In this document: positions 1-5,984 of the stretch, piece by piece
How the letters are laid out: each line of letters begins with the position of its first letter
Numbering within the stretch: position 1 is the stretch's first letter
DNA from: Candidatus Absconditabacterales bacterium
GTDB lineage: Bacteria > Patescibacteria > JAEDAM01 > Absconditabacterales > Absconditicoccaceae
Assembly: GCA_938010495.1 (NCBI GenBank)
Contig: CALLUT010000038.1
Coordinates: 1-6,262, forward strand
DNA length: 6,262 nucleotides
Reading direction: 5' to 3'
Translations under genes and position numbers: made by a program
Notes under the pieces: generated by a model
What the model was told of the DNA's origin: nothing
What the model saw: only the letters and a program-made list of their open reading frames with translations
Database searches by the model: none

Positions 1-838
1 CATAATCTACTAGAAGAGCTATGGTGTCATTTTTTTCTATTGCTTTTTCCATTGCTTCATCTTCTGTATCAAACGCTGCAAAATATCTATGTGCAAGGGT
101 TCAAGATGTATGAAGTTGAGAGTGTACAGCAGCAGCGGCATCGTTTGATGTTCAAGTGACTCATCATCAGATGTAAAGTGACTTTGTTGCTGCAAAATGC
201 ATGCTATCATTTATTGCAGATCTATTTCCAAATTCTACAACCCTATCACTTCATAATAATTCTTCTATATAACGAGCATCAGTAGCAACTGCGCTTTCAT
301 AAAATATTCTTAAGAAAATTGGTTCATATAACGCAGCTAATTCTTGTGAATATTCAGATTCTACACGAATGCTTGGCTCTCCAGGTTTTTGTACCGTTCA
401 ATCATCCACTGCATAAATATCGATTGGAAGGTATCAATTATGTTGATCGATTACTGATTGTCGAATATCTTTATCAAAATGTCAGTTTCGTCATTGTTTT
501 TTCATCTCCTTGTAGAATGCTTCTGCGAAATCTAATTCTTCTTGGTTTAATGGAGCAGTAAAAAGATCTTTTATTCTTCTTCTTACTCAAGCGATCACGT
601 TATACGAATTGTTTGGCGATCTTCTGCAAGAGAGAGTAAATACTCATGAAGAAAACTTTAAATCGTCAAATGTGTAGGTCATTGTTCTGTTGTACGTGTC
701 TGTTTTAAGAACTTTATTGCGTCAGACTATATCTTCCCTTACTGACTCGATAGTGATGTTTTGAAAGTCATCATACGTAATGTGTTTTGGAAAAGTGTAC
801 AATGTTTGTTCGTATCCTTTTTGGTTAAATGTTTTCAT
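1..838 (-). CDS. pncB: Nicotinate phosphoribosyltransferase, 3' part missing (UGA = Gly)
   Basis: This gene would make nicotinate mononucleotide from nicotinate and PRPP, the entry step of NAD salvage in the cytoplasm. The frame begins at ATG 838 and is cut by the window edge after 279 codons; the family is usually about 400-500 residues. Family-like blocks are visible in order: LKTDTYNRTM (residues 44-53), the strand FTLSCRRSPNNSYNVIAG (67-84), DDGTVQKPGEPSIRVES (145-161), VEFGNRSA (201-208), GGGVTGTSN (224-232) and GTLAHRYFAAFDTEDEA (246-262). These resemble the D-YK-M, FRR-P, EFG-R, GTSN and GT-AH blocks of nicotinate phosphoribosyltransferases. Thirteen of 16 glycines are TGA, including three in a row at 224-226, so a standard-code reading would look like a broken gene. 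AAGAG just before the ATG is a weak, very close ribosome site. The C-terminal domain is unseen, so a nicotinamide-using relative is not excluded. Confidence 0.8.
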
Positions 839-1032: not shown

Positions 1033-1377
1033 TTATTTCTTGAATGAATCTATTATCCCTCGTACCTTCTCATAAATTGTAGGGTATTGTTTTAAGGTGT
1101 TTTCTATTATTTCAAGAATTTCATGCATAGAGTTAGTATCTGTTTCAGCCGAATTTTTTTCTTGGCTTTCTTTTGATTCTAACAATTTTTCGATCATTTC
1201 TTTTAACTTTTCAATATCTGTTTCAGCAGGTATTGAATCTTTAAATAGAGCTTTCTTTAATTTCTCAAAGAATGTCTTTCGAAGATCTATCATTTCCGGA
1301 CTTTCCATAACCCAATCTATAATTTTCATTATAGCGGCCTGGATAATTAACGCTTTTAAGTTCGATTTCAAACTCAT
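1033..1377 (-). CDS. Small charged helical protein, function unknown
   Basis: I do not recognise this 114-residue protein. It starts at ATG 1377, with a TAA in frame two codons upstream, and ends in TAA. Residues 6-25 are mildly hydrophobic (LKALIIQAAIMKIIDWVM), perhaps an amphipathic or membrane-associating helix. The rest is rich in Glu and Lys with heptad-like spacing and probably forms a coiled coil. AETD occurs at residues 51-54 and again at 77-80, each followed by a similar E-rich helix, which looks like an internal duplication; the DNA repeats are listed separately. The start lies inside the end of the upstream gene (1356-1790), so the two are probably translationally coupled in one operon. 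It has only one glycine (GGG) and no internal TGA. The reading frame is well supported, the function is not. Confidence 0.7.
   Translation of the reverse strand: MSLKSNLKALIIQAAIMKIIDWVMESPEMIDLRKTFFEKLKKALFKDSIPAETDIEKLKEMIEKLLESKESQEKNSAETDTNSMHEILEIIENTLKQYPTIYEKVRGIIDSFKK
1137..1227 (-). repeat. Pair of 13-bp direct repeats inside the gene at 1033-1377
   Basis: TATCTGTTTCAGC (plus strand) occurs at 1137-1149 and again at 1215-1227. The spacing of 78 bp is exactly 26 codons, so both copies encode AETD in the same frame. The flanking helices are similar but diverged, which suggests an old tandem duplication of a helical unit. Confidence 0.7.
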
Positions 1378-1790
1378 CTTTTATTATTTTTAGTAGTGAT
1401 TGATTGTCTCATACGTTCTAACCAAAGTTTTTTATTCTTCCAGAACAATTTTCTAGAAGATGCTTCAGGAATTGAGTTGAGAATTTTTGCTTTTAATTCA
1501 GTAGAAAAATCTTGTAGTTTCGTATATAAAGATTCTCTTTCTTCATCAAGAATACTAGGATCTTTTTCAATGAGTTGAGAAATAGATTCTTTGACCTCAT
1601 GAATAAAATTATTAACTGACTCTACTGTATTATTTTTCCATTCTTTCCAATTTTGCTTGGATAAAATAGTCTTAATAGATTTTTTAATTTTCTTTTTTAA
1701 ATCTAGCCTTTCATTAACTTTGCCAAGCAAAACCCAAAGAAGAGTTTCTACTGAATTTTTTATTATGAACTTAATAATGTATACCCACAT
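1356..1790 (-). CDS. Small basic helical protein, function unknown (C-terminus depends on UGA decoding)
   Basis: This protein is not recognised. From ATG 1790 the frame gives 138 residues to a TGA at 1376-1374. In this organism TGA should be glycine, and reading continues through GVGNRT to TAA, giving 144 residues. Residues 1-23 are hydrophobic with scattered charges (MWVYIIKFIIKNSVETLLWV), suggesting a membrane-associated N-terminal helix. A Lys-rich stretch follows (31-51), then a long Glu/Lys helical region (55-105) and a basic, Trp-containing tail (113-138). The ATG lies 5 bp after the stop of the 35-residue frame upstream. No Shine-Dalgarno sequence is visible, so coupled reinitiation or a -1 frameshift is plausible. 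The 3' end overlaps the next gene by 22 bp under table 25, or by 4 bp (ATGA) under the standard code. Confidence 0.65.
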
Positions 1791-2383: not shown

Positions 2384-2420
2384 TAGGGCAAACATTCATT
2401 TGTTTGACCCTATTTTTTTT
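2384..2420 (+). terminator. Strong intrinsic terminator
   Basis: TAGGGCAAACA (2384-2394) pairs with TGTTTG-A-CCCTA (2401-2412), an 11-bp stem with one bulged A and loop TTCATT, followed by eight Ts (2413-2420). It begins 7 bp after the TAA of the gene at 2105-2377. On the opposite strand the hairpin lacks a U tract, so the convergent gene at 2419-3570 is not obviously terminated here. Confidence 0.9.
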
Positions 2421-3570
2421 ATTTAAAAACAACTTTTTCTTTTCAAACCGTGAAGTGAGTGCTTGGGTTATCTTTTCTAACAAAATTAAGAAATTGTACA
2501 AGAAGTTGTTTATCTTCAAATGCTTTTCATTCAAGGAAAAATCAATTTTTTACTCATGGACAAATATCGACTCAAGAATATAACCCATCTGAGTTGTATG
2601 CAAAGTCTCTTAAAAATGAAAGTTCGTACGATCTTCAAGTAGTAAATGTTTCAATAATTTTTTGATTATATCATAACTCTATGGGAAGAGTAATTTTTTC
2701 TTTTGTGCTTGGATAAAAATTTGTTTGCTCATGTTTTATTTCTTTTCAGTTCTCTTCACGGTAGACTTTCTTTGCTTTTGCTCGTACAATTTGAAGACTA
2801 TCTTCTATAGTCTCATTATACTGATTTATTCTTTTTCTTTCTCTTATTTTTGCATAACGTTTATTATACGATTTTAATTTTCCATTAAGTTCATAATAAC
2901 GATCAATGTATTTCCACTTTTCTCTTTCTCATAGTTTGAACTCTGTACGAAGAGATTCTTGAATTTGATCTTCTTTTCAAGGAGCATAAACAAATAATTT
3001 TGCTTCGTGATATTTTTTTGAAATAGCTCAAGATTTAGTTACTTGTCTTTTTTGTCGTTTATGAAGAATTTCTTGTCTTAATTTGTCTCAAGGACTAACT
3101 AGGACTAAGGCTACAAAGAAACACGCTATAGAGCTTAATAGCGCTGGAAGATCTTGTCTTAGAGTTGGGGCAGTCATAGCTGCACCTAAAAATACTGTAT
3201 ACAGTGGATCATGAACAAAAACATCTTTATAAAAAGATTCTTGTCATCATTCTCGTATTTCTTTTCGAAATCATAATTCACGTGGTCATGGATTTTTCCA
3301 ACGATCTCGCAATGCCATACTTGTCGAACGAGTAAAAAGTCATACTTTTTCAAAGACCACAGACATACCCGCTATTATTGCAGGATTACTTGTTACGGTA
3401 CTTAACCACATCGTACTTGGGGCAGCAGCAAGCAACGCAAAAACTTCATCTGTTCCAAATTCTACAAGGTCTTCAAAATAATTATCTTCTTCAATAACTA
3501 TATCTTGATGTCAGATATCTACTTGTTCTTGAATTATTTTATGAATATCTGGGCTCTTTATTTCTGGCAT
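2419..3570 (-). CDS. Membrane protein with a C-terminal CYTH-like domain (UGA = Gly)
   Basis: This frame of 383 residues runs from ATG 3570 to TAA 2421-2419; 18 of its 23 glycines are TGA. Two hydrophobic segments are visible, about residues 43-79 (FALLAAAPSTMWL onward) and 122-159 (including SSIACFFVALVLV), so the N-terminal half is probably in the membrane. From about 185 the chain resembles a CYTH (triphosphate-tunnel) domain: YHEAKLFVY (187-195) as a degenerate ExExK strand, YIDRYYELNGKL (221-232) like the family's Q-DTYYD block, AKIRERKR (240-247) like LRIR, and VDICPGVKNGFFLEGK (334-349) like the late D...FLE strand. CYTH proteins act on triphosphates or as adenylate cyclases. The first ExExK glutamate is replaced by Tyr, so activity is uncertain. 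The gene is divergent from the CoaD-CoaE-HD gene. The frame is certain; the domain call is moderate. Confidence 0.6.
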
Positions 3571-3601
3571 AGATTGGTTTAATTCATAATAAACTACTTG
3601 C

Positions 3602-3630
3602 AATATAATATAATATATTTAAAAAGTCAA
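3602..3630 (-). promoter_or_regulatory. Promoter of the membrane CYTH-like gene
   Basis: On the minus strand TTGACT (3630-3625), a 17-bp spacer and TATATT (3607-3602) precede ATG 3570, giving a leader of about 25 nt. The plus strand of the same 86-bp divergent region has overlapping TATAAT sequences (3604-3609, 3609-3614) but no clear -35, so the promoter of the gene at 3657 is unresolved. Confidence 0.5.
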
Positions 3631-3656: not shown

Positions 3657-5984
3657 ATGAAAACAACATTTAATGCATGATCTCGCGATCCAATAACTCT
3701 ATGACATAAGTGAATGGACATAATGTTTTCAGAAGAGGCTGATCGTCATGGTATAATAATGTGAACAAATCCTGAAAAAAAGTATAGATTTTCAAGACAA
3801 GAAAGAACAATGCTAGTTGAATTAATGATGAAAGATCGTTTGTTTGAGAATGGGTGAAATATTGAAGTTATACAATCTGATACAATAGCGTATCGAGATA
3901 GTCGTCGTTACTACTGAAATAGTATCGTTTCTAAAAAATGAGTAAGATGAAGTTCAGATAAAAAATATGAGCAAGCAATTCATGATATCTCATTAGAGCA
4001 AATGCCAGCTAATGATTGGGCTGACATAATAGAACTCATAATGGTTGATTCTACTAAAGATATAAGTCATATTAGTTCCTCTCTTCTTAGAAATTTATGT
4101 TCTTGATGAGGAAAAATTTATTCGCTTGATAAAAAGAAAAGACTTATTGATCTTGTTATAAAACCATTTATCGAAGCAAGGTTAAAATGACAATATAGAA
4201 TAAACTTAACATGAGCTATGTGATCATGAAAATCATATATTTGAGAAATGTTAGTGAAAATTGCTAAGAGGTTATGAATCGAGGCTCATCATATTGATAT
4301 AGACAAAATACGACATTATATTATTTGAGAATCTACAGCTGAATACCATGTAGAGACAAGAGAAAAAATTATGAAACGATTGGAGATGTGTGAACAGGAA
4401 GACGGTAAAGAATACGGAGAATATATTAATAATGTATTTACCGATGATTGATTTATACAGAAAGAATGAAGAACGTTTATAAGAGAAAAAATCGCATTTG
4501 TAAATCCTGATGATAAAACAAGAATTAAACAACTTACAGCAATTGCTTGGCCTGTAGTTGACTTAGAACTTGATATTAAGTTAGCAAATATGAAGTGACT
4601 GATTATTTTGAATAACGCTCTTATTGCAGAAAATAATACGAGTTATAGAGGGAACAATAATACTGTTTTGATTTCATCAAATAGACAAAAAGAACAAGCT
4701 CAAAACAGAGATAACGTTGATGAAGCAACTTCTGATAAATATATGAAATTTCAAGCCAGTACTAAGAGAAAAGAACAAGCATTGCTTGAAACGATTGCTA
4801 CAGATGAAACATGAACATTACATCTTTTCCAAAATGACATGGCTGGAGACAAAGAAGTACAATTGTTACTAAACCTGATATTAGAAACCATTGATGTTGA
4901 TGGTAAATTACGTTTTGATGCTCTTACAGAAAGACTACACTTAGAAATGTCTCAAAAAGAAAAGAAAGCAGCATTTGATCAAGTTAGATGATTTTATGAA
5001 ACAAAAGAAAGAGAACATCATGCGCGACGCCATCCATTAAATATGTGGAACAGACTGTATGCTATTGCTGACCAGCTATCTGATGAAGAATTAAACATTT
5101 ATGAATTATCGATTATTTTCCATGATCTCATGATGAAATTTAGTAGAGAGCCATGATATGTTGATGAAGAAAAGAGTGCAGATCGTGCTAGTAAGATAAT
5201 GAAAGATCGATGAATATCTCAACATATTATAGACAAGGTAAGAGCAATGATTATGAGAACTAGACATTCCGTTAACGAAAAACCAATGAATTTCTTAGAA
5301 GCCCATTTAGTTGCTAACGACTTGATTATTCTTGCATCAGATTATAAAACATATATGAAGTACGCTGACAATATTAGAAAAGAATATAGTCATGCAAGTA
5401 GTGAAGCATACTTAAAATGAAGAAAGGCGTTCTTAGATAAAATGTTACAAAAGAATGAAATAATGCCTGTGTCTCATTATGAAAGATTGGCAGCAACCGA
5501 CAAAAGAATTACATCAAAAATGATTGATGATCTTAAGAAAAAAGAAGAAATTGCTCAACTAAATCTTGAACAAGAACTTATGATTCTAGAATGTAAAACT
5601 AAAAATATGGAGTGAGATAAGTTTCCAGACATACAAGTTTTTGAATGACATGATCAAGTAATGACTATAAGTATGCCAGATGAAATTGTGTTGCAACGAA
5701 ATAAAATTTCTAAAACAGAAAAAAGATCGTTCTTTATTAAAGTATGAGATAAGAGAATTGAAAAATGATCAAAATGGCATTTTAGAGAATTAGAAAATAT
5801 GTTAAGAGAATATTATGAAAATAATGATGAAGCAAGAGATGAGCTACTAGAAACCCAATGATATACTATGTGAGTAATGCACCATGATCAACCACATAGC
5901 GTCCTACCAGACCAATTACTACTAGTTCTTTTGAGACTAAGAGAAGAATTTAATAAAAAACTTTTAGAAAATAAATCTGTCTAA
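3657..5984 (+). CDS. CoaD-like / CoaE-like / HD-phosphohydrolase fusion protein (UGA = Gly)
   Basis: This 775-residue frame ends in TAA; 31 of its 39 glycines are TGA. Domain 1 (about 1-160) resembles phosphopantetheine adenylyltransferase: NAGSRDPITLGH (6-17, with His17 at the catalytic position), NPEKKYRFSRQER (38-50), VRG (96-98) and HISSSLLR (138-145). Domain 2 (about 180-395) resembles dephospho-CoA kinase: P-loop GAMGSGKS (186-193), HIDIDKIRH (212-220), DDGFIQKEGRTFIRE (263-277), then WP where the family has HP (298-299), and a lid-like Lys/Arg region (342-375). Domain 3 (about 440-630) matches my memory of the COG4339 HD family: H454, H455 and H459, the HD pair H489-D490, ND (554-555), IRKEY (573-577) and AYLKGRKAFLDKML (584-597). 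Residues 640-775 are unrecognised. Domains 1 and 2 would convert phosphopantetheine to CoA; the HD substrate is unknown. No Shine-Dalgarno sequence is visible. The domain 1 and 2 roles are inferred from motifs. Confidence 0.8.

Follow-up and report, generated by a model that had tools for sequence, protein, structure and literature searches.

The window (the whole stretch of DNA analysed here, 6,262 nucleotides) holds the following genes and features, with residues numbered along the fusion protein:

1..838, minus strand: nicotinate phosphoribosyltransferase (NAPRT) gene, cut by the contig end (TIGR01513, E 1.1e-24, 87.2 bits, a fragment below the cut-off)
1033..1790, minus strand: two small open reading frames, helical-looking
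2419..3603, minus strand: 394-residue open reading frame, membrane-like by eye, with no convincing family match
3657..5984, plus strand: CoaD-CoaE-HD fusion gene, 775 aa in translation table 25 (TGA = Gly)
3657..4130, plus strand: PPAT (CoaD-like) domain, residues 1-158
3681..3707, plus strand: PPAT ATP-site motif S9-x-D11...G16-H17 (SRDPITLGH); S9, D11, G16 and H17 invariant in 13/13 rows
4074..4082, plus strand: PPAT C-terminal SSS motif, residues 140-142; S140 and S141 invariant in 13/13 rows, S142 in 12/13
4191..4892, plus strand: DPCK (CoaE-like) domain, residues 179-412
4212..4235, plus strand: P-loop GAMGSGKS, residues 186-193; G191, K192 and S193 invariant in 13/13 rows
4977..5576, plus strand: HD phosphohydrolase domain, residues 441-640 (phrog_19425)
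5019..5033, plus strand: HD motif H455-x3-H459; both His invariant in 37/37 HD rows and aligned with the phosphodiesterase (PDE) motif YHNxxH (a weak alignment, with a PDE5 chain)
5121..5126, plus strand: HD doublet H489-D490, invariant in 37/37 HD rows
5319..5321, plus strand: D555, an Asp invariant in 37/37 HD rows
5598..5981, plus strand: C-terminal tail, residues 648-775, present in the window copy only and without a family match

When TGA is read as glycine, positions 3657-5984 of the plus strand encode a single 775-residue chain, in which a CoaD-type PPAT is followed by a CoaE-type DPCK and then by an HD phosphohydrolase. Such a chain had been proposed in the preliminary description, and it was confirmed. 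With a DNA pattern (an elongation-factor motif, TGA being Gly), eight genomes were retrieved, of which five bear the title Candidatus Gracilibacteria, and through these G006 was reached; in the class of G006 the window protein (P0001) matched 16 of 353 genomes, and a profile of the relatives placed all three domains in one frame in 12 of the 353 (G006, G015, G016, G019, G028, G052, G064, G067, G074, G076, G080 and G103). The PPAT-then-DPCK order and the origin from a table-25 CPR bacterium, both suggested earlier, were supported as well, and the source bacterium is tiny and probably host-dependent. A further three-part case is the database protein P0124 (611 aa), with PF01121 and PF01467 assigned by Pfam and the HD part by profile match and by eye. 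In a 379-genome sample of the phylum, the three-part protein was found in G006 only. An artefact of assembly or annotation, through a wrong code or joined genes, might be suspected of a window copy that lies on a single short contig; against this, the full-length architecture in 12 separate genomes and in P0124, with one fusion on a 1,177,760-base contig of a genome of about 1.2 Mb, refutes the suspicion as to the architecture, and we regard such an artefact as hardly conceivable.

The checked active-site residues of all three domains were invariant across 13/13 three-part rows, including S9, D11, G16, H17, K41, R97, S140 and S141 of the PPAT domain and G191, K192, S193, D216, R235, R351 and Q366 of the DPCK domain. 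We take SxDPxTxGH, K42, R91 and SSS to be the site residues of PPAT (CoaD), and the fold of the PPAT domain agrees with the CoaD assignment. The window copy itself is divergent, with Q in place of R347 and A in place of D553 (the R and D are kept in 12/12 relatives), and with CoaD and CoaE scores under the NCBIfam cut-offs (TIGR01510, 45.4 bits against a curated cut-off of 103.3; TIGR00152, 22.4 bits against 65.55); its DPCK part passed PF01121 (28.7 and 34.4 bits against a gathering score of 27) and is termed CoaE-like because of the TIGR00152 score. Its tail of about 130 residues compares with 0-4 residues in the 12 relatives by alignment, and a Pfam scan of the tail matched no family. The public prediction of the window protein (P0002) reads TGA as Trp, so that the glycine-rich motifs of the CoaD-CoaE-HD family are hidden from database searches.

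NadR has the same adenylyltransferase-kinase order, and the first two domains might accordingly be read as a NadR-like NMN adenylyltransferase and ribosylnicotinamide kinase instead of a CoA synthase, a reading to which the gene neighbourhood lends something. NAD(P)-salvage enzyme genes, counted where at least two of nicotinamidase (PncA), NAPRT, NadD, NAD synthase (NadE) and NAD kinase (NadK) were present, lay within about 10 kb of the fusion in 6/12 genomes (G052, G015, G080, G076, G067 and G064), and an NrtR-like Nudix gene alone was near it in two more (G016 and G019). In G052, G016, G015 and G019, the first downstream gene longer than 100 residues on the strand of the fusion is NrtR-like (the model was run on the gene of G015 only). 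On the 6.9 kb contig of G074 there was PRPP synthetase only, and near the fusions of G006, G103 and G028 no NAD(P)-salvage gene was seen. Neighbours were assigned by family models on representatives and for the others by BLAST cluster, and these counts are not independent samples because the fusion genomes are related. The NAPRT of the window shares 47% identity with the NAPRTs that neighbour the fusion in G015 and G052. Against the NadR-like reading, the curated TIGR01510 cut-off was passed by 6/12 fusion relatives (best 140.6 bits, in G052) and that of PF01121 in 11/12 fusion genomes, G015 and G076 have separate NadM-like and NadD-like genes within the stretch that carries the fusion, and NadR models gave no match to P0001 at E<=1; we thus consider it highly improbable.

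The preliminary description had called for a survey of the architecture and of missing stand-alone coaD and coaE genes, and when relatives were surveyed, neither CoaE nor full-length CoaD turned up outside the fusion. In the 12 fusion genomes, PF01121 (CoaE) matches lay solely inside the fusion in 11, with none in G074, and full-length TIGR01510 (CoaD) matches solely inside the fusion. The remaining CoaD matches reach no further than profile position 73 of 155; four (two in G064, one each in G067 and G080) lie in genes of the NadD BLAST cluster, and one in G076 and one in G117 fall outside it. No CoaE was found in G137 or in six fusion-free table-25 genomes (0/7). Among 14 genomes searched, CoaBC (control 14/14), CoaX (control 7/14) and CoaA (control 10/14) were each detected in none, although these absences are weaker than those from closed genomes, since most of the genomes are in many contigs and their completeness is not stated. 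The CoA pathway thus appears, from gene content, to be cut down to its last two steps, so that phosphorylated pantetheine would need salvaging; fusion-carrying cells would most likely start from 4'-phosphopantetheine, and the protein most likely converts this salvaged compound to CoA. As relatives appear to be without pantothenate kinase (CoaA and CoaX types) and CoaBC, 4'-phosphopantetheine would be taken from outside; from family, fold and intact motifs, the PPAT domain would make dephospho-CoA from it and ATP, for the DPCK domain to phosphorylate to CoA. CoA synthesis from salvaged 4'-phosphopantetheine is therefore likely, which suggests how some CPR bacteria obtain CoA. A literature search that covered few subscription papers found no Patescibacteria together with dephospho-CoA kinase; in PMC6282201 the CoA passage concerns Prevotella, and the Gracilibacteria passage describes glucose fermentation to acetate and auxotrophies.

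As for the third domain, the profile phrog_19425 matched it in the window copy with E 1.7e-16, whereas PF01966 gave 13.5 bits, under its cut-off of 22. We take its family to be COG4339, for which no settled substrate exists to our knowledge; COG4339 as a whole word was not found in the literature search, which covered few subscription papers. The metal site H...HD...D is intact, with H455, H459, H489, D490 and D555 invariant in the 13/13 three-part rows also, and D555 is presumably the second metal-ligand Asp. In a fold comparison the top rows were cyclic-nucleotide PDEs of class I, at 11-18% identity in the rows listed. Foldseek gave no match at E<=0.001, the sequence match to PDE5 was weak (whole chain E 0.0019, best stretch i-Evalue 0.18), and PF00233 (class-I PDE) matched one of 37 HD members, at E 0.006, which places the family outside that Pfam family. 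The active site looks phosphodiesterase-like, resembling class-I phosphodiesterases with a weak sequence match. Acyl carrier protein phosphodiesterase (AcpH, PF04336) was considered and rejected, hhalign with E. coli AcpH giving a probability of 0.1 and PF04336 matching 0/37 HD members at E<=0.01. Many table-25 genomes of the class have another HD protein, matched solely by the HD part of the profile (for example, G064:C1:88939-89409 and G076:C1:220313-220798).

The same HD family was found with CoaD in predicted viral loci. The class genome G351 encodes an HD-CoaD protein in reverse domain order, and, used as a query, this protein matched 1871 database proteins at E<=0.001, some of which may not be fusions; among the 120 matches listed, the query's own record included, a loose HD motif was present in 120 and a strict PPAT motif in 95, with HD first in 95/95. 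Across 38 IMG/VR loci, HD and CoaD shared one frame in 10, CoaD alone was present in 10 and HD alone in 12, and an HD gene lay just upstream of CoaD in four and of CoaD-CoaE in two (L082 and L089), counts that lean to fusions because the loci were found with HD-CoaD query proteins. In 5/6 of the gene pairs the frames overlap by four bases, with a gap in L082. None of the 50,697 records of an annotated phage collection covers 80% of an HD-CoaD query, and three huge-phage stretches have HD or CoaD, with the fusion absent. Two papers place coaD, coaE and NAD genes among the abundant viral genes in snow (PMC11097641) and CoaD in a Microcystis jumbo phage (PMC8093824). The G351 gene lies at L109 (G351:C168), without TGA recoding, among an integrase end, toxin-antitoxin genes and an ABC transporter (by eye), and this contig may be a binning contaminant.

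In the HD tree, which took in 9/10 viral fusions and 3/6 paired viral HD genes, a 99/98 branch separated the nine fusions from the 13 three-part proteins, and the three paired genes were placed on the side of the latter. Since the domain order is reversed and the lineages are distinct, the HD family was probably joined to CoaD at least twice. With two separate fusions to the same CoA enzyme, this orphan HD family gains a testable pathway. The HD-CoaD link is well supported, and the earlier suggestion that the hydrolase belongs with CoA metabolism was strengthened by its conservation in 12 genomes and by the independent link in predicted viral contigs; as relatives keep the design and predicted viruses fuse or pair HD with CoaD, a role of the hydrolase in coenzyme A salvage is probable.

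This evidence also bears on the possibility that the fusion merely secures co-expression and that the HD enzyme is chemically unconnected with CoA. HD occurs without CoaD in 12/38 viral loci, and in the stretches examined CoaD does not adjoin the stand-alone HD genes of G137 and five further Patescibacteria, which means that the family is not confined to CoA. However, CoaD was joined by HD domains of two distinct lineages, in opposite orders, the paired genes overlap by four bases in 5/6 cases and the HD active-site residues are intact, so we consider mere co-expression very doubtful.

We rate the protein as a CoA synthase with a built-in hydrolase. We lean slightly towards a trifunctional CoA-salvage enzyme of Gracilibacteria, whose HD domain would serve the PPAT end of the pathway as an active metal phosphohydrolase or phosphodiesterase. 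Most likely it would provide PPAT with clean 4'-phosphopantetheine, either through hydrolysis of a pantetheine-phosphate conjugate or through elimination of a damaged form; that its substrate class is a pantetheine-phosphate compound has, in our estimate, about an even chance. In a narrower proposal, the HD domain would be a phosphodiesterase: 4'-phosphopantetheine would be released from its conjugate (carrier-protein serine, peptide or CoA-like ester, obtained from host or prey) and passed to the fused PPAT and DPCK. If true, CoA would be made from the pantetheine of other cells by one self-contained enzyme, and the carriers of the host would likewise be stripped by phages that encode HD-CoaD. 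ACP was detected in 2/12 fusion genomes (G016 and G019; control 11/14) and phosphopantetheinyl transferase in two others (G064 and G067; control 10/14), so that ACP charging is probably not the main use of CoA and the cell's own ACP is an unlikely source of the conjugate. The HD family is without sequence relation to AcpH, which speaks against this narrower proposal, and we hold it to be quite unlikely.

Alternatively, CoaD-CoaE may be a salvage CoA synthase whose HD domain acts, for regulation or clean-up and not for pantetheine supply, on an adenine nucleotide by-product or signal common to CoA and NAD metabolism, such as a cyclic nucleotide, an ADP-ribose compound or a 2'/3'-phosphate. Half of the fusion genomes and some predicted viruses have salvage genes for CoA and for NAD(P) close together; among the viral loci, PRPP synthetase (Prs) adjoins CoaD in 8/38 (three of which look like near-copies) and a few CoaD loci also have NAPRT or NadM-Nudix neighbours; the Nudix gene alone in two further genomes and the cyclic-nucleotide PDEs at the top of the fold comparison point the same way. 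The fusion partners are nevertheless CoaD and not NAD enzymes, a shared fold is no proof of substrate, and Foldseek gave no match at its threshold; this is a credible, if unlikely, alternative to the supply of clean 4'-phosphopantetheine. In the IMG/VR contig L149 (5274-10091), an HD gene, a CoaD-CoaE gene and an adenylyltransferase-Nudix gene lie within 5 kb, bringing NAD and CoA functions together.

Among known systems, eukaryotic CoA synthase (COASY) resembles the fusion in PPAT-DPCK order alone; in contrast, the fusion has a bacterial CoaD-type PPAT (TIGR01510), an extra HD domain and no upstream pathway found, and its origin is likely independent of COASY. In PANK4, a DUF89 phosphatase that acts on 4'-phosphopantetheine is fused to a CoA-pathway enzyme; its fold family is unrelated to HD, and its partner is a kinase-type domain, not PPAT-DPCK. 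The viral HD-CoaD proteins (about 290-350 aa) likewise combine PPAT with this HD family (phrog_19425, by the model run on L058) in a single chain, but differ in their reverse order, the lack of CoaE and a separate HD lineage. Two-domain CoaD-CoaE proteins have the same order in a chain without HD and occur in other Patescibacteria and two predicted viral contigs (371-389 aa in G117, G609, G545, G664, G397 and L082/L089, the G694 protein matching over the same span); in L082 and L089, HD is the gene just upstream. As G117 and five other Patescibacteria of the phylum sample (G609, G694, G545, G664 and G397; L128-L132) have CoaD-CoaE without HD, the HD domain would be dispensable for the synthase, and G137 has HD alone. 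The trees do not show the three-part proteins as a single clade, which makes it possible that the HD part was gained or lost more than once: P0124 adjoins two-domain proteins, the HD of G028 adjoins a stand-alone HD, and the window copy forms a long branch of uncertain position. The two-domain gene of G545 follows genes for pyruvate formate-lyase (PFL), its activase and an ADP-forming-type acyl-CoA ligase by family models, and its surroundings in G664 and G694 look alike by eye (models were run on G545 only), a setting that suggests acetyl-CoA fermentation as the user of CoA. In another database protein, P0125 (343 aa), an RsmD-like methyltransferase part (PF03602) is joined to a CoaD-like part (PF01467).
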